Of a stretch of DNA of 45,916 nucleotides, positions 31,738 through 39,069 are shown one piece after another (the stretch's first letter is position 1; the number at the start of each line of letters is the position of its first letter). The stretch is from positions 1-45,916 of the forward strand of contig CASEPS010000010.1 in assembly GCA_949289855.1 (NCBI GenBank). Reading direction: 5' to 3'. The notes under the pieces are model-generated. The model saw only the letters and a list, made by a program, of their open reading frames with translations, ran no database searches and was not told where the DNA came from. The DNA is from an uncultured Erysipelotrichaceae bacterium. GTDB taxonomy: Bacteria; Bacillota_I; Bacilli_A; Erysipelotrichales; Erysipelotrichaceae. The translations under genes were made by a program, and so were the position numbers.

Positions 31738-32973
31738 TCATCCGAGGGTGGTGTCCATGATGGACTTCATCTTTGCGGCAAGTCCTTTGACTTTCTTTAC
31801 AGGCAGTGAACATACACCAACGCGAATGCCCTTGTTTACCTTGACAGTATAAATGTGGTTTGCCATGAAGGCATCATGAAGCTTGTCGCGGTCTTTGTTA
31901 TCCTCTATGCGCAATGTCACAAAGAAACCTTCTTTATATGGATAGGTATCAAGTTCTGCTTCTGCTGCTTCTTTAAGGAACAGATCACTTCTTTCCTTCA
32001 TCAGAGCGATGTATTTCTCCTTTTCTGCCAGGAAAATATCTCTTCCTTCTGTGACAGCCCAGACAAAGTTTGCCATGGCCGCATTAGGAATGTTGGACCA
32101 TGTAGCGCGGGCCTTCTTTTCCATGATGATTTCTACGTCTCTTACATCCTTTGCATTCTTTGCCAGGATGATGGCAGCACCGCAGCGAAGACCATAGCTT
32201 GTCAGTGTCTTGGAACAGGAGAAGCATACTTCAACCATGACGTTGTCACTCAGTTCTTTAAACAGCTTCATATAGGCGCGGGCATCTTCCATGGAACGGT
32301 TGGCATAGTCGATATAAGCAATATCATTGATGAGAACAATGTTGCAATCTTTCGCTTCTGCATTGAGCAGGCTGATCATTTCTTTCCATTCTTCTTTGGA
32401 TAGGGAATAGCCAGTCGGGTTATGGCATGGGTCATTGAGGACAATGACAACGCGGTCCTGTTTCTGTTTGACTTCTTCAATCTTCTCTTTGAGGGAAGTG
32501 AAGTTGAAGTGGTCACCATCGAAATTCTTGTAGGTAACATAGTCAATGCCATTTTCATGGCACATGAGTGTATAGGAACCCCAGGCAATTTCTGGAAGAA
32601 TGGCCGTTTCTCCCGCATCGAGGAATGTGGTAAAACCCATGGAGACTGCACCACTGCCACCCGGTGTGGCAATGACAGAGTGTGGCAGATCGAGGTTCTG
32701 CGTTACCCATGTATATACATTTTCCCGATAGTCCGGATTACCGGTAAAGCTCGACGCATAGGCTGCCTTGACGCGGTGGTCGATGGCGTCATAATGATCA
32801 AAGACAGTGTCGAAAGCAACAAGCTGTCCTTCTTCGTTGTACAAAGAACCGATGGTTGCGTCAGTGACGACATCTGCTCCATTTTCTGCAATGTCCTTTT
32901 TGGCAAGGGAGACAATCGCAAATACGGTATCGACGATTGGTGTAAGATCTGCACTTTTCTTTGTGAATGACAT
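31738..32973 (-). CDS. aminotransferase class I/II (aromatic or aspartate type)
   Basis: A 411-residue PLP enzyme. The PLP Lys is K255 in SCSKTLTSYGLRCG, the cofactor-stacking and Asn/Asp positions are in LNDPCHNPTG and LINDIAYIDY, and the C-terminal Arg lies in IRVGVCSLP. The fold-type I pattern GGSGAVSMGF near residue 105 binds the cofactor phosphate. Amino donor and acceptor are not resolved; aromatic or aspartate aminotransferases are closest. The start follows GAGGAGGATTAGAAT. It follows yggS by 3 nt, forming a PLP-related operon. Confidence 0.9.
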   Translation of the reverse strand: MSFTKKSADLTPIVDTVFAIVSLAKKDIAENGADVVTDATIGSLYNEEGQLVAFDTVFDHYDAIDHRVKAAYASSFTGNPDYRENVYTWVTQNLDLPHSVIATPGGSGAVSMGFTTFLDAGETAILPEIAWGSYTLMCHENGIDYVTYKNFDGDHFNFTSLKEKIEEVKQKQDRVVIVLNDPCHNPTGYSLSKEEWKEMISLLNAEAKDCNIVLINDIAYIDYANRSMEDARAYMKLFKELSDNVMVEVCFSCSKTLTSYGLRCGAAIILAKNAKDVRDVEIIMEKKARATWSNIPNAAMANFVWAVTEGRDIFLAEKEKYIALMKERSDLFLKEAAEAELDTYPYKEGFFVTLRIEDNKDRDKLHDAFMANHIYTVKVNKGIRVGVCSLPVKKVKGLAAKMKSIMDTTLG

Positions 32974-33666: not shown

Positions 33667-34249
33667 ACTTGAAAGGAATGGGCCTTTGTTGTGCCGGGGT
33701 AATGTACTTTTTCTTTGAAAAGAAGGGGAGAAGGACATTGATAACAATGATGATCAGGATGATCTGTATCGGGAAGAGAATGGTGTTCTTATAGAAGCTG
33801 ACGGCCGCATATGCCCAATAACCTTTGGCGCCAACCATGAGATATGTCCAATAGGAACCGATCAATACATTGACGACATAGGATGACAGAAACTTGGCAA
33901 AGAATATTTTGAGGATGGTGATACGCTGTCCATAGAGAAACAGGGCATAGCATAGTACCCCAAGCATGGCAGAAAGCGTATAGCCGAAGAAGAAGCCATA
34001 GCCACTTGGAAACAAGAGGAACTGCAGAATGTCTTCGGTGAAGGCAAATACCATGCCGGCTACCGGTCCAAATAACATACCGGAAAGGGCGACGAGGATG
34101 AAGCTGAAGGAAATGGTCAGGTTTGTGGCAACCTGGATGGAGAATTGTGCCACCACAATGCGCAGGGCAAGGAATATTGCCATGATGGCAAGCCACTTGA
34201 TGGACTTCAGCTTGAGCAGAGATGACTTCCAGTTTTCTTTTATATTCAT
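33665..34249 (-). CDS. folT: ECF transporter S component, folate-specific (FolT-like)
   Basis: A 194-residue membrane protein with about six hydrophobic helices from residue 24 to 180. The start of helix 1 (IKWLAIMAIFLALRIVVAQ) and the segment VALSGMLFGPVAGMVFAFTEDILQFLLFP are typical of energy-coupling-factor substrate-binding subunits. It should bind the vitamin and pair with a shared EcfAA'T module encoded elsewhere. Folate specificity is inferred from the THF riboswitch in its leader. The start at 34249 follows AGGAGG, which can be hidden by a hairpin. Confidence 0.88.
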   Translation of the reverse strand: MNIKENWKSSLLKLKSIKWLAIMAIFLALRIVVAQFSIQVATNLTISFSFILVALSGMLFGPVAGMVFAFTEDILQFLLFPSGYGFFFGYTLSAMLGVLCYALFLYGQRITILKIFFAKFLSSYVVNVLIGSYWTYLMVGAKGYWAYAAVSFYKNTILFPIQIILIIIVINVLLPFFSKKKYITPAQQRPIPFK

Positions 34250-34255
34250 AAAAAT

Positions 34256-34375
34256 ACCTCCTTTCACCAATCCGTGAAGGAGGTCAGTATCACGTCTTGG
34301 GAATCGCAGTCTACCGCAAGATTTCTCTTTTCGTCCATAGCCTCCCCAGACTATGGCACTTGACGCAGACTGTTA
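34256..34375 (-). promoter_or_regulatory. THF riboswitch with ribosome-binding-site hairpin
   Basis: Transcribed leftwards. The aptamer is recognised by GCGTCAAGTG (34366..34357 region) and the distal ACGAAAAGAGAAATC and GCGGTAGACTGCG parts, matching the THF-I pattern GCGUUAAGUG and CGAAGCGAGAG/GCGGUGAAUCAU. P1 is CAGTCT (34372..34367) with AGACTG (34312..34307). The expression platform is a hairpin joining ACCTCC to GGAGGT (34284..34279 with 34261..34256), which traps the AGGAGG of folT and is followed by ATTTTT. Translational, or possibly terminator-like, control by tetrahydrofolate is expected. Confidence 0.85.
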
Positions 34376-34380
34376 TATGC

Positions 34381-34409
34381 AAGATACCATAAGGGCACAC
34401 ATAGCACAA
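34381..34409 (-). promoter_or_regulatory. promoter of the folT riboswitch transcript
   Basis: TTGTGC (34409..34404), 17-bp spacer, TATCTT (34386..34381). It starts the transcript a few bases before the riboswitch. Confidence 0.5.
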
Positions 34410-34455: not shown

Positions 34456-35331
34456 ATGAACGATTTAGTGATGACGGTGCTGGAAGATGTGCACAACCTT
34501 CCGGCTTTGATCAATGCCGGTGCAGATGTGTTTCTTGTGGCATTGGATGAATATAGTTTTACCGCCCAGAAGAAGCTGAAGAAGGAACAGCTTTCCTTTG
34601 TGGCACAGATGGCAGGTGGTTTCCATAAAGGCATTGCCTTATTGGTGAACAAACTGTTTCATGAAGGAGAAGTACAAAAGCTGGACAGCCTTTTTGAAAC
34701 AACAGGTATTCTGGATGTGTCATATATTGTGTTTCAGGACCCTGCCGTAATCATGAAAGCAAAGCAATATGGCTATTCTGGAAAATTCATCTATATGCCG
34801 GATACCCTTGTGACTAATTGCAGGGATGCGGATTTTTACCGCAAACAGGGCATCATACCTTCTGTTTCACCAGTGCTGACAAAGGAAGAAGTCAAAGGCA
34901 TCGTCCAGGATGGAGAAGCGATGGTGACGGTCTTTGGTCATACATTGTTATCCCGCTCTGCCAGACCATTGCTCAGTGCATGGAGTGAAAACTATGGCAG
35001 ACAGAGTCTTGTGAAGAACAAGGACCTTGTGCTTGTGGAAGAAAAGCGTGATGGCCGGATGCCGGTTTATGAAGATGAAGAAGGTACATGTATTTACAGT
35101 GATGAAGTGTTGATGGCATGTAAGGAAATGCAGGAAATTCATGTGGATCATCCAATGCTTTATTTTGTGGATGGGGTATTTCTGGAAAGGATTGCCCTGA
35201 TGGATGCTGTACATGCAGTAAAAGAAACATTAGATGGAAGAAGTGGGGAAGAAGTGGAAAAGGAATTCCAGGAAAAATATCCTTCACTTGTGATTGGAAA
35301 GGGGTATGCATATGCCAAAACCATCCTTTGA
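34456..35331 (+). CDS. U32 peptidase-like protein, TrhP1/YrrN-like
   Basis: A 291-residue protein of the U32 family, N-terminal barrel part only, without the U32 cysteine cluster of the partner gene. In Bacillus subtilis the YrrN/YrrO pair (TrhP1/TrhP2) acts in 5-hydroxyuridine formation at wobble position 34 of tRNA. The present gene is in the same order, overlapping the next gene. Features: GADVFLVALDEYSFTAQ near residue 20, DVSYIVFQDPAVI near 90. The role is by analogy with the Bacillus pair. Confidence 0.8.
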   Translation: MNDLVMTVLEDVHNLPALINAGADVFLVALDEYSFTAQKKLKKEQLSFVAQMAGGFHKGIALLVNKLFHEGEVQKLDSLFETTGILDVSYIVFQDPAVIMKAKQYGYSGKFIYMPDTLVTNCRDADFYRKQGIIPSVSPVLTKEEVKGIVQDGEAMVTVFGHTLLSRSARPLLSAWSENYGRQSLVKNKDLVLVEEKRDGRMPVYEDEEGTCIYSDEVLMACKEMQEIHVDHPMLYFVDGVFLERIALMDAVHAVKETLDGRSGEEVEKEFQEKYPSLVIGKGYAYAKTIL

Positions 35332-36535
35332 GAAAAAGATAGAATTACTTGCGCCAGCGGGGGATCTTTCCAGGGCAAAGACAGCCATTCTCTATGGTGC
35401 AGATGCCATATATCTTGGTGGGATGAACTATTCCCTTCGCTCACGGGCTTCCAACTTTACGATGGAAGATATCAGAGAAGTATGCCAGTTTGCCAGAGAA
35501 CATGGTGCACGTGTCCATGTGACAACGAATATCATTCCTCATGATGAGGATTTTGATGGTGTTGGGGACTATTTCAAAGCTTTACAGGACTATGGTGTTA
35601 CAGCGGTGATCACTGCATCACCTGCCTATATGCAGATTGCAAGGCAATGTGCACCAGAGCTTGAAATTCATTGTTCTACCCAGCTTTCCATTACCAATAC
35701 CCTTACAGCAAAGTATCTTTCAGAAATGTTACATGTCGACAGGGTAGTTCTCGCAAGGGAATGTACTCTTCCTGAAGTACAGGAGATTACAAAGCATTGT
35801 CCGGTGGAAACAGAGGCATTTATCCATGGTGGAATGTGTGTCAACTATTCAGGCAGATGTACACTCAGTAACCGCATGACATTGCGTGATGCAAACCGTG
35901 GAGGATGTGCACAGAGCTGCCGCTGGCAGTACCATTTATATGAAAATGACAAGGAACTGAGTGATGCGCAATCCATGTTTACGATGGGTTCCAAAGACCT
36001 CATGAGTGCTTCTGTTGTCAAAGATCTCATCCTTGCGGGTGTTTCTTCCCTCAAGATTGAAGGCCGCATGAAAACAGAATATTATGTGGCTTCGGTGGTG
36101 TCGGGTTACCGTCATCTGATTGATGCATTGTATGAAAAGAACTTTGCTTTAAGTGAAGAAGAGATGGTATATCATACAAAAGAAATCATGAAAGGGGAAA
36201 ACCGTGAGGTATGCAATGGGTTTTATGATGGCAGGGCTGAAGGAGAATCCATTATCTTCCATGCCTTTGATAATAACCATGTTTCCCATGACTTCCTTGG
36301 CAGGGTAAAAACAGTTGAGGATGGTACAGCATATCTTCTTACCCGCAATCCAATTGATATGGGAGATGTCATTGAAGTGTTATCACCAGGGAAAGAAAAC
36401 CGCAGGTTTACGGTTACGGGTATGAAGAATGACAAGGGTGAAAGTCTTGATAGAAGCCGCAGTCCGATGACTGTGATTTCCATGCCGGTACCTTTTGTGG
36501 TAGAAGAAGGCGACATCTTCAGGAGGGCAGGATGA
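35312..36535 (+). CDS. U32 family protein, TrhP2/YrrO-like tRNA hydroxylation factor
   Basis: A 407-residue U32 protein. The start region LLAPAGDLSRAKTAILYGADAIYLGG is the U32 barrel start, and GGMCVNYSGRCTLSN plus GGCAQSCRW supply the four cysteines of the family iron-sulfur site. A beta-barrel domain follows from about residue 320 (HDFLGRVKTVEDGTAYLLTRN). ATG 35312 is preferred: AAAGGGG is 7 nt upstream, and the preceding gene ends at 35331. It probably works with TrhP1 in ho5U synthesis, a prephenate-dependent reaction. The next gene overlaps by ATGA. Confidence 0.88.
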   Translation: MPKPSFEKKIELLAPAGDLSRAKTAILYGADAIYLGGMNYSLRSRASNFTMEDIREVCQFAREHGARVHVTTNIIPHDEDFDGVGDYFKALQDYGVTAVITASPAYMQIARQCAPELEIHCSTQLSITNTLTAKYLSEMLHVDRVVLARECTLPEVQEITKHCPVETEAFIHGGMCVNYSGRCTLSNRMTLRDANRGGCAQSCRWQYHLYENDKELSDAQSMFTMGSKDLMSASVVKDLILAGVSSLKIEGRMKTEYYVASVVSGYRHLIDALYEKNFALSEEEMVYHTKEIMKGENREVCNGFYDGRAEGESIIFHAFDNNHVSHDFLGRVKTVEDGTAYLLTRNPIDMGDVIEVLSPGKENRRFTVTGMKNDKGESLDRSRSPMTVISMPVPFVVEEGDIFRRAG

Positions 36536-37269
36536 TACAGGTAGAAGGCGGATTGAGTGTCAAGGCAGCAATGCTTGGTGGAAAGCGCATTGTGCATACT
36601 GTTTTTCTGGATGAAACAAGACATGATAAAGATGCCCACTTTATTGAACGTAAAGCAGAAGAGCTTTCCATACCAATGCAAAAGATGTCACGGCATGAAA
36701 TTGATGAAATGGCAAATGGCAGAACCCATGGAGGGGTACTTGCACATGTTGGAGAGAGAATGTACCAGACAAAGGAAGAAACAATACAGGGTACTCCATT
36801 ACTGGCACTTGTGGAAGGGGTGGAAGATCCTTTCAATCTTGGTTACATAATGCGCTCTTTATATAGTGCAGGCTGCACGGGTCTTGTTTTGCGAAACAGG
36901 GACTGGTCCAATGCGGAAAGTACTATTCTCAAATCGAGTGCTGGTGCCTTTGAATACCTCAATGTTGTGCTTTCGGATGATCTTTCCAAAGATGTGAAAT
37001 GGTATAAACAACAGGGTATTAAAGCCTGTGCGGCTATGCGTAAGGATGCTGTTCCGTATTGGAACAATTGTTATACAGAGCCGTGTCTGATTGCCATTGG
37101 TGGCGAGATGCGGGGCTTATCCAGTGGTGTATTGAAGGAAATGGATCAGAACATTTATATTCCCTATGCCAATGATTTCCGGGCAGCATTGAATGCGGCA
37201 GGAGCGTGTGCGGCAATATTCTTTGAAGCTTTTCGGCAAAGGGAAGCGGTTACATCAAAAATGCAGTGA
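36532..37269 (+). CDS. SpoU-type RNA 2'-O-methyltransferase
   Basis: A 245-residue RNA methyltransferase. Residues 1-85 resemble the substrate-binding domain of TrmH/RlmB proteins (VKAAMLGGKRIVHTVFLDE). The SPOUT core follows: LLALVEGVEDPFNLGYIMRSLYSAG (motif 1), LIAIGGEMRGLSSG (motif 2) and ALNAAGACAAIFFEAFRQR (motif 3). Motif 3 has Ala-Ala-Leu-Asn where Ser-Leu-Asn is usual, so the target pocket may be altered. It is coupled to trhP2. Confidence 0.9.
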   Translation: MIQVEGGLSVKAAMLGGKRIVHTVFLDETRHDKDAHFIERKAEELSIPMQKMSRHEIDEMANGRTHGGVLAHVGERMYQTKEETIQGTPLLALVEGVEDPFNLGYIMRSLYSAGCTGLVLRNRDWSNAESTILKSSAGAFEYLNVVLSDDLSKDVKWYKQQGIKACAAMRKDAVPYWNNCYTEPCLIAIGGEMRGLSSGVLKEMDQNIYIPYANDFRAALNAAGACAAIFFEAFRQREAVTSKMQ

Positions 37270-37284
37270 TACAACTGCATTTTT
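37257..37284 (+). terminator. rho-independent terminator
   Basis: AAAAATGCAGT (37257-37267) and ACTGCATTTTT (37274-37284). It overlaps the stop codon of the SpoU gene. Confidence 0.9.
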
Positions 37285-37320: not shown

Positions 37321-39033
37321 ATGAAAGAAGCATATTATTTTCACGATGATACGGTCATCATCAACTATTCCAAGGTATATGTGAGAAATTCCCAGGAACT
37401 TCTCGATTGCGAAGGCTTTAATGCTTTCCTGCATCACTACATGCATTACCTTGAACATCGCCATTTTGACCTCCATGAGTATTTGTTCAAAGACCATGAG
37501 GGGATTGATGAAGTATGTGATGATATCATCACCGTCATGAAATTACTGCTCGTACTGGATTATGACCAGGTGGGACATCCATATGTCAGCGACCGCCATA
37601 TTCTGCTTGAAATTATTGAAGAAGGCTATCACTTCTGGAGAAGCATGCAAAGATATTCCTTCCTCTATACACAGAATGAAGAAGGCTATCAGATGCAGTC
37701 CTTTATTTCTGCAGATGGTGGATTCAATGCCACAGTTCTCGGTATGTACCGCCTTATCCAGCAGAAAGTACAGGGTTCTCCAAACAAGGTTTACCGTCAG
37801 CTGCAGGCTGGTACAAATGCGGCATTACTCTTGCAATATTACAAGTGGGATGTACCGGCAGGTTATGAAGCACTGGACGGTATTCCATTCATTCATGAAA
37901 TCATGATGCGCACACCGCTCATCGTTCATCCAAAGTCCAACAAAAGAACAAATGTATTCTCTGATGCGGACCATAATCCAATCGAAGACTTCATCCCGGG
38001 TGATGAAGAATGGGTATGTTTCCCGGCAAAGGTTGGTCAGCTGATGATCTTCTGTTACTTCCACAGAAATTACATCACTTCTGCAGTCGCAACCGCAAAC
38101 CTGTTTGAACTTGCTGGTATCAGAGATGTTGCCGGCACAAAACCAGATGCGATTATGATCTTCGGAAATCCGGATGGAAAAGACGATACCGTCTTCTACC
38201 AGGACAAAGCAAATGGCATCTGGGTAGCGAAGAATTCCGCAAGTGAAAAGATTGACTACTTTGGTTATACAAAGAAGACAATGTTAACATTGCATAACCT
38301 TGTCATGATGGAAAGAGGCTGGCTGCCAATCCATGGTGCCCTTGTCAACATCTACCTCAAGGATGGTACAAAGAAGGGTCTCATGTTCATGGGAGATTCT
38401 GGTGCAGGCAAGTCCGAGACCATTGAAGCTCTTTCTGCTGCGGCAAGTGATCTCATCGATCACCAGGAAACAGTCTTCGATGATATGGGAACCATTCATC
38501 TTGATGAAAATGGTGAAGTACGTGCACAGGGCACAGAAATCGGTGCATTTGTCAGACTCGATGACCTCGATAAAGGTACAGCGTATAAAGATATGGACCG
38601 TTCCATCTTCTTCAATCCGGAGAAGTCCAATGCCCGTGTCGTCATTCCGGCTGCACCATATGATGTGGTAACAACCGACCATAAGATTGACTGCTTCCTG
38701 TATGCCAATAACTATACCGACAAGCGCGGTATGCATTTCTTTGAAGATAGAAATGGTGCGGAAGAAGTGTTTGTACAGGGTAAGCGTTTTGCTCTTGGTA
38801 CAACCCAGGAAAAGGGTTATACAACAACCTTCTTTGCCAACCCATTTGGTCCAATGCAGAGACAGGAACAGTGCTCAAAGCTCATCACAAAGCTGTTTGA
38901 TGCCCTTTATGAGCAGAACATCCCGGTTGGTGAAATCTATACCTGCCTTGGTCTTCCAAATAAAGGAGACCATGGTATTGACAAGGCAGCGGAAGCATTG
39001 CTCGACTTTGTTAAAAACGGCAAGAAAAACTGA
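37321..39033 (+). CDS. HprK/PEPCK-superfamily P-loop protein of unknown function
   Basis: A 570-residue cytoplasmic protein. The core resembles HPr kinase/PEP carboxykinase: PIHGALVN at 336-343, Walker A GDSGAGKSE at 358-366, then an acidic FDDMG near 395 and GTEIGAFVRLDD near 415, then a region like FFANPFG. This P-loop form, with Lys-Ser-Glu, is that of HprK rather than of common kinases. The first 320 residues are unlike HprK (HHYMHYLEHRHF, then a helical domain). The protein is far longer than HprK (about 310) and shares little with PEPCK outside the core. It is a single-gene transcript. The phosphoryl acceptor and donor are unknown. Confidence 0.75.
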   Translation: MKEAYYFHDDTVIINYSKVYVRNSQELLDCEGFNAFLHHYMHYLEHRHFDLHEYLFKDHEGIDEVCDDIITVMKLLLVLDYDQVGHPYVSDRHILLEIIEEGYHFWRSMQRYSFLYTQNEEGYQMQSFISADGGFNATVLGMYRLIQQKVQGSPNKVYRQLQAGTNAALLLQYYKWDVPAGYEALDGIPFIHEIMMRTPLIVHPKSNKRTNVFSDADHNPIEDFIPGDEEWVCFPAKVGQLMIFCYFHRNYITSAVATANLFELAGIRDVAGTKPDAIMIFGNPDGKDDTVFYQDKANGIWVAKNSASEKIDYFGYTKKTMLTLHNLVMMERGWLPIHGALVNIYLKDGTKKGLMFMGDSGAGKSETIEALSAAASDLIDHQETVFDDMGTIHLDENGEVRAQGTEIGAFVRLDDLDKGTAYKDMDRSIFFNPEKSNARVVIPAAPYDVVTTDHKIDCFLYANNYTDKRGMHFFEDRNGAEEVFVQGKRFALGTTQEKGYTTTFFANPFGPMQRQEQCSKLITKLFDALYEQNIPVGEIYTCLGLPNKGDHGIDKAAEALLDFVKNGKKN

Positions 39034-39043
39034 GAGGAATAAG

Positions 39044-39069
39044 AAAAGCAACGGAATTCCGTTGCTTTT
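39044..39069. terminator. bidirectional terminator
   Basis: A 26-bp perfect palindrome with arms AAAAGCAACGGAA and TTCCGTTGCTTTT serves the convergent genes. Confidence 0.93.

Follow-up and report, generated by a model that had tools for sequence, protein, structure and literature searches.

Phosphoenolpyruvate carboxykinase (PEPCK) occurs in ATP-, GTP- and PPi-dependent classes, and its C-terminal segment carries adenine-binding residues and completes the adenine site. HPr kinase (HprK) has about 310 residues, with a different N-domain from that of the protein described here. PPi-PEPCK is described as evolutionarily unrelated to the ATP and GTP enzymes, and PEPCK is known to run in the oxaloacetate-forming direction in several fermenters (PMC8100219). 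We have analyzed a gene for a 570-residue protein (37321–39033, + strand, ATG start) in a stretch of 45,916 nucleotides from an uncultured Erysipelotrichaceae bacterium (contig CASEPS010000010.1), which as a whole is called the window. The gene was recognized by family membership and conservation. An earlier note, made from the sequence alone, had described its product as a large HprK/PEPCK-like protein.

We consider it likely, with a probability of roughly three in four, that the gene encodes a highly divergent PEPCK-type enzyme with an additional N-terminal helical domain of ~170 residues, and that the enzyme probably makes oxaloacetate for aspartate. What was computed is the homology and fold over ~400 residues, the invariant residues of catalytic type, the gene neighborhood and the distribution; the reaction, its direction, the nucleotide, the assignment of R209 as substrate-binding arginine and a possible regulatory function of the N-domain are inferred.

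Relationship to PEPCK

No Pfam or NCBIfam model scored the window protein above its cut-off, and the family is uncharacterized. The matches to PF01293 (PEPCK_ATP; E 1.4e-4, 21.2 bits) and DUF4914 (PF16260; E 0.007, 14.9 bits) were under the cut-offs of 26.5 and 25.7, respectively, and the best NCBIfam match, PRK09344.1-3, gave 25.9 bits vs 369. Two family members, from genomes G197 and G286 (G and L numbers denote our genomes and loci), pass the PEPCK_ATP cut-off alone, with 28.8 and 29.8 bits. Weak matches to DUF4914 were present in 16 of 16 close members (best E 8.4e-5) and to PF00821 (GTP-PEPCK) in 9 of 16 (best E 0.035). A sequence-based profile search of the PDB returned no PEPCK, its best rows being transporter P-loops (E 0.013). 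A ClpC match at residues 80–103 (E 0.73) was at chance level and was discarded.

When a profile of 73 members was aligned by hhalign with five canonical PEPCKs of the same class, 273 columns were matched (residues 253–541, E 8.9e-8), and use of a broader profile of PEPCK gave E 2.1e-9. The full-length AlphaFold2 model, built with 16 sequences, displayed the two-lobed PEPCK fold. The best Foldseek match had an E of 2.3e-14 and all 50 matches listed were PEPCK, and VIA-align placed residues 174–570 on residues 3–458 of the Thermus thermophilus enzyme (2pc9) with a Z of 20.7 (346 aligned residues, 3.6 Å). The profile–profile and structural matches thus bear out the HprK/PEPCK fold class.

Residues ~172–570 model as the whole PEPCK body. 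The counterpart of the PEPCK N-lobe (residues ~172–311; 37834–38253, + strand), delimited by structural alignment of the model of residues 172–570 and by conservation, holds R209. The kinase lobe (residues ~312–570; 38254–39033, + strand), delimited by the 273-column match and by conservation, contains the motifs YFGYxKK (313–319), H338, the P-loop (358–365), DD (387–388), NxR (437–439) and ANPFGP (506–511). The long N-terminal half, which the earlier note had found to resemble nothing recognizable, therefore shrinks: only residues ~1–170 lack a recognized relative, since residues ~172–310 model as the PEPCK N-lobe.

The extra, mostly helical domain (residues 1–170; 37321–37830, + strand) is absent from PEPCK, as judged from the AlphaFold2 models, Foldseek and conservation. 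Folded alone, it gave a pLDDT of 77 and no Foldseek match at E≤0.001. In VIA-align its arrangement was weakly globin-like, with a best Z of only 6.2 (112 aligned residues, 4.0 Å), which is below the trusted level; the first 26 matches listed were globins except the seventh (stressosome) and the twelfth (syNOS). No invariant His was present in residues 1–170 in the alignment of 73 homologues. R144 is invariant (110 of 110 distinct sequences) and R111 and Y103 are nearly so; the conservation of R144 and R111 suggests that the domain is functional, perhaps as a sensor.

The protein is highly improbable as an HPr kinase or another protein kinase. The type of P-loop is common to both, and Hpr_kinase_C (PF07475) is matched weakly (E 0.019), but at 14.9 bits this match is far under the cut-off of 33.3, and the HprK model TIGR00679 gave 16.3 bits against 240. 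In addition, a genuine HprK is encoded on another contig of the same genome (195.7 bits), the PEPCK fold match extends over ~400 residues, and the neighbors of the gene across the class are amino-acid genes. HPr kinase identity was rejected on account of the scores, the separate HprK and the fold, and these findings, together with the invariant residues, also speak against the earlier proposal of a kinase for HPr or a small metabolite. HprK was absent among the 50 structural matches listed by VIA-align, which in itself is uninformative. The best reading of the sequences is a highly divergent branch within the PEPCK fold superfamily, named by no library. Of the defining features of ATP-PEPCK, two are lacking in the window protein: a score above the PF01293 cut-off and the C-terminal segment.

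Active-site residues

Conservation was assessed in 170 extracted sequences, of which 110 were distinct. The residues Y313, K318, K319, H338, G358, G361, G363, K364, S365, D387, D388, R439, R209 and R144 were invariant in 110/110, and H338, K364, D387 and D388 were also invariant across the 73 aligned homologues. The open reading frame contains the motifs named in the earlier note (PIHGALVN at 336–343, GDSGAGKSE at 358–366 and FDDMG at 386–390), and since H338, K364, D387 and D388 within them are invariant in both sets, the motifs are not chance occurrences.

Y313, K318–K319, H338, the P-loop, D387–D388 and R439 align with the Tyr, Lys-Lys, His, P-loop, Asp-Asp and Arg of PEPCK, so that in the C-lobe the positions of the metal-ligand Lys, His and Asp, the P-loop Lys-Ser/Thr, the Tyr and the Arg are all occupied. 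The Asp-Asp column was misplaced in the 273-column alignment and right with the broader PEPCK profile; this pair was fixed by eye. We take the Escherichia coli PEPCK counterparts to be Y207, K212, K213, H232, K254, D268, D269 and R333, and its substrate-binding arginine to be R65, in a TGR motif. By our alignment, K319 is the counterpart of K244 of rat PEPCK. Rat K244 is a ligand of the oxaloacetate-bound Mn, and Arg87 of that enzyme is a catalytic residue (PMC7948413). The invariant R209 is a candidate for the substrate-binding arginine of PEPCK (R65/R87); the N-lobe profile alignment gave no trustworthy match for it. A standard PEPCK active site, which the earlier note had regarded as contradicting its assignment, is thus largely present in the C-lobe, whereas the N-lobe arginine is unaligned.

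It is conceivable that the protein, as a kinase or carboxykinase with this fold, has a different substrate, such as some other 2-oxo acid or a small molecule from amino-acid metabolism. Its sequence is distant from every PEPCK, the substrate loop of the N-lobe is unrecognizable and the C-terminal part is missing. We nevertheless find this quite unlikely, as every mapped catalytic position of the PEPCK C-lobe is invariant, the NxR arginine included, and the gene alternates with PEPCK or PEPC (phosphoenolpyruvate carboxylase) in several lineages.

Occurrence in genomes

A first scan of genome contigs gave 16 loci, 58–78% identical, all from records of Erysipelotrichaceae, Erysipelotrichia, Solobacterium or Lactimicrobium. 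A second sample comprised 392 genomes of the same phylum, and the profile search covered this phylum plus viral contigs, in which no relative of the protein was found. Matches were obtained in 93 of the 392 genomes; after removal of G216 and G395, 91 carriers remained. G003 was likewise not counted as a carrier; in all three genomes, what is weakly matched is a gene for an intermediate or a canonical PEPCK. Most members align over most of their length with 35–65% identity and come from many families of the class, and some carriers are TGA-reading genomes. In genus g69 the gene lay in frames of 1200–5775 residues, which we read as artefacts because the frame in one inspected case (L093, from G139) runs into a stretch of N. 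We found no paper on this family, and none naming DUF4914, in the open-access literature searched.

The genome of the window (G000) has no PEPCK above cut-off; its two weak PEPCK matches are the window gene and a paralogue on contig 83. The latter (L019; 10301–11998) is 63% identical to the window protein and lies beside an open reading frame that by eye resembles PRPP synthetase. Two copies are likewise present in G002, G033 and G034. In G285, G335, G343, G393 and G428, the main copy is accompanied by another PEPCK-like paralogue, which has ~480 residues and is a much weaker match (18–23% identity). A further PEPCK-like group of ~540 residues (L084–L089, L149, L152, L153 and L158) scores 40–74 bits to PF01293, carries the motifs CHGGQKRF and DITVLHDDAF, has the ANPF motif in common with the window family and in some genomes adjoins a cluster of the oxaloacetate-decarboxylase type.

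Among the 392 genomes, PEPC was found in 5 (no carrier among them), canonical PEPCK in 21 (12 carriers), PYC_OADA in 29 (5 carriers) and the intermediate PEPCK-like gene in 16 (2 carriers). Carriers as a whole did not avoid PEPC (p 0.59) or PYC_OADA (p 0.50). Avoidance of PEPCK and PEPC is found only inside lineages. In the window's ‘same genus’ set, which is a label of the tool (38 genomes with the window's own; 9 carriers and 29 others), canonical PEPCK was present in 0/9 carriers vs 24/29 non-carriers, PYC_OADA in 0/9 vs 23/29, and PEPC in none of the 38. Across the window's whole family, PEPCK-type genes occurred in 0/35 carriers vs 28/40 non-carriers (Fisher p 2e-11, uncorrected for relatedness); one carrier, G024, has a fragment only. 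Genus g78 contains two carriers without PEPC and three PEPC genomes without the PEPCK-like gene, and in genus g92 three carriers lack canonical PEPCK, while its one holder of PEPCK, G331, is not a carrier. PYC_OADA was set aside as a functional equivalent: its genes are clustered with OadB and a biotin carrier, and in four loci with citrate lyase, clusters that resemble the sodium-pumping oxaloacetate decarboxylase (gene names by reading the sequences).

In 72 of the 91 carriers none of the four models (PEPC, canonical PEPCK, intermediate PEPCK-like and PYC/OadA) was found, so that by these models their source of oxaloacetate is a hole. Should the present family be what fills this hole, the metabolic models built for Erysipelotrichaceae and related bacteria could be corrected.

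Neighboring genes

Genes around the carrier loci were called by a simple longest-frame method. In the first 40 loci, the next gene was an aminotransferase, AsnA, thrC or glutamate dehydrogenase in 12/40 cases vs 8/153 for distant genes of these loci. Because this set of neighbors had been chosen after viewing those loci, 40 further loci were fetched afterwards; the same types were found in 9/40 vs 4/131 distant genes, with labels assigned by similarity to the first set and not by NCBIfam. In the NCBIfam check the neighbor types were AsnA, aspartate aminotransferase, thrC, thrB, asd, aspartokinase, homoserine dehydrogenase and NADP-glutamate dehydrogenase.

Five of the first 40 loci have a class I aminotransferase directly adjoining the gene; neither these five nor the two aminotransferases of class V exceed a specific NCBIfam cut-off. 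In L138 and L109, an aspartate aminotransferase of type Ic (NF053594, 574 bits, cut-off 435) and AsnA (TIGR00669, 340 bits, cut-off 293) lie immediately upstream of the gene. Rv3722c, the namesake of NF053594, is reported to be the principal aspartate aminotransferase in Mycobacterium tuberculosis (PMC7181641). In L122, thrC-thrB-hom-asd-lysC begins 18 bases downstream; in L118, thrC-thrB-asd-lysC is divergent from the gene; and in L135, NADP-glutamate dehydrogenase (571 bits, cut-off 536) follows after 12 bases. That the aminotransferases adjoining this one gene in different lineages are not homologous speaks for transamination of its product, and the neighborhood points to oxaloacetate for aspartate.

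The same neighbors could be explained if a true PEPCK-type enzyme were run gluconeogenically, so that PEP is formed from oxaloacetate, which the products of the aspartate genes would derive from aspartate. The active-site residues would be identical, aminotransferases are reversible, and within the window's family the gene seems to take the place of canonical PEPCK. This direction appears unlikely to us, since the AsnA and thrC-thrB-hom-asd-lysC neighbors are biosynthetic, the gene alternates in genus g78 with PEPC, a carboxylating enzyme, and canonical PEPCK is already there in family f2.

In family f14 (L112, L113, L139, L140, L141, L160, L172–L175 and L177), the gene is directly downstream of formate–tetrahydrofolate (THF) ligase and often upstream of purE (names read by eye). 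For this folate and purine setting we offer no explanation beyond housekeeping gene order.

Proposed role

In the oxaloacetate-forming PEPCK that we favor, the cleft would hold the metal by Lys319, His338 and Asp388, and the nucleotide would be bound at the P-loop. The predicted reaction is PEP + CO2 + NDP <-> oxaloacetate + NTP, and its main job in these fermentative bacteria would probably be carboxylation, by which high-energy phosphate would be conserved. Oxaloacetate would then be converted by an aminotransferase to aspartate, and on to asparagine, threonine, lysine and nucleotides. Where a canonical PEPCK coexists, a division of labor by direction or nucleotide would be expected.

Several observations weigh against this assignment. 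The full-length model is middling (pLDDT 71 from 16 sequences), the C-terminal ~70 residues of PEPCK are missing, with the model stopping at the equivalent of ~458–470 of ~530, and the region of PEPCK R65 is not alignable with confidence, residues 198–210 having a pLDDT <50. Over the 392 genomes, canonical PEPCK is positively linked with the gene (12/21, p 0.0006), and in family f2 it is also present in 12 of 16 carriers; the gene is thus not simply a replacement for PEPCK. The sampled median identity between G000 and the PEPCK-bearing ‘same genus’ G023 was only 51% (34 reciprocal pairs), so that this label is a broad one, and few evolutionary events may underlie the contrast. The choice of neighbor types was made with the first 40 loci in view, and six of the nine matches in the second set repeat a gene pair previously found in their genus or family; the new ones are L161, L165 and L195. 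Finally, the window's own aminotransferase is 4.3 kb off on the opposite strand.

A wider proposal is tentative and, in our view, doubtful: the family might be a separate PEPCK class beside the ATP, GTP and PPi classes, carboxylating and supplying aspartate throughout an entire class of gut bacteria and bacteria with reduced genomes, in which a non-heme, globin-like N-domain would serve for allosteric sensing, perhaps of aspartate.

Other features of the window

The sequence AAGGAG is just 5' of the ATG at 37321. The earlier note had the gene standing alone between terminators. A bidirectional terminator-like hairpin was found downstream by the terminator scan (39044–39069), but a terminator upstream of the gene is doubtful: an ATGCAG/CTGCAT repeat is readable at about 37261–37280, yet it was not listed by the scan. 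The upstream gene's stop is 51 bases from the start at 37321, and the order of U32 peptidases, TrmH-type methyltransferase and PEPCK-like gene is also present in close relatives, which makes the isolation of the gene uncertain.

The class I/II aminotransferase of the window (31738–32973, − strand) has relatives that directly adjoin the PEPCK-like gene in other lineages, and its nearest solved relatives are 4emy and 3rq1. A THF riboswitch (34295–34384, − strand; RF01831, 46.3 bits, gathering threshold 36) lies just 5' of the S component of a folate-type ECF transporter (33668–34249, − strand; TIGR04518 above cut-off). Two overlapping frames of the U32 peptidase type are at 34456–35331 and 35294–36535 (+ strand), the second of which matches TrhP/UbiU-type models under cut-off.

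Comparison with known enzymes

The HprK family (PF07475, TIGR00679) has the type of P-loop and the DD in common with the window protein, but long-range similarity is lacking and HprK is a separate gene in the genome. DUF4914 (PF16260), whose function is unknown, gives a weak sequence match and has a similar length (612 positions), but the match is below cut-off. PPi-PEPCK (EC 4.1.1.38), likened here by description only, would catalyze the same carbon chemistry. GTP-PEPCK (PF00821; 4wou) is similar in fold, with a Z of 19.1 over 384 residues, but has 10% identity and a weak Pfam match. If our assignment is true, a PEPCK that differs in the N-lobe, in the nucleotide end and by an extra domain is a measure of the divergence that this fold tolerates with its catalytic residues kept. 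ATP-PEPCK (PF01293, EC 4.1.1.49; 2pc9 from T. thermophilus and 1ayl from E. coli) has in common with the window protein the fold of ~400 residues, YxGxxKK, the His, the P-loop, DD and NxR; the window protein differs from it by ~13% identity in the aligned structure, a missing TGR motif, a Pfam score below cut-off, the extra 170-residue N-domain and the lack of the C-terminal ~70 residues.
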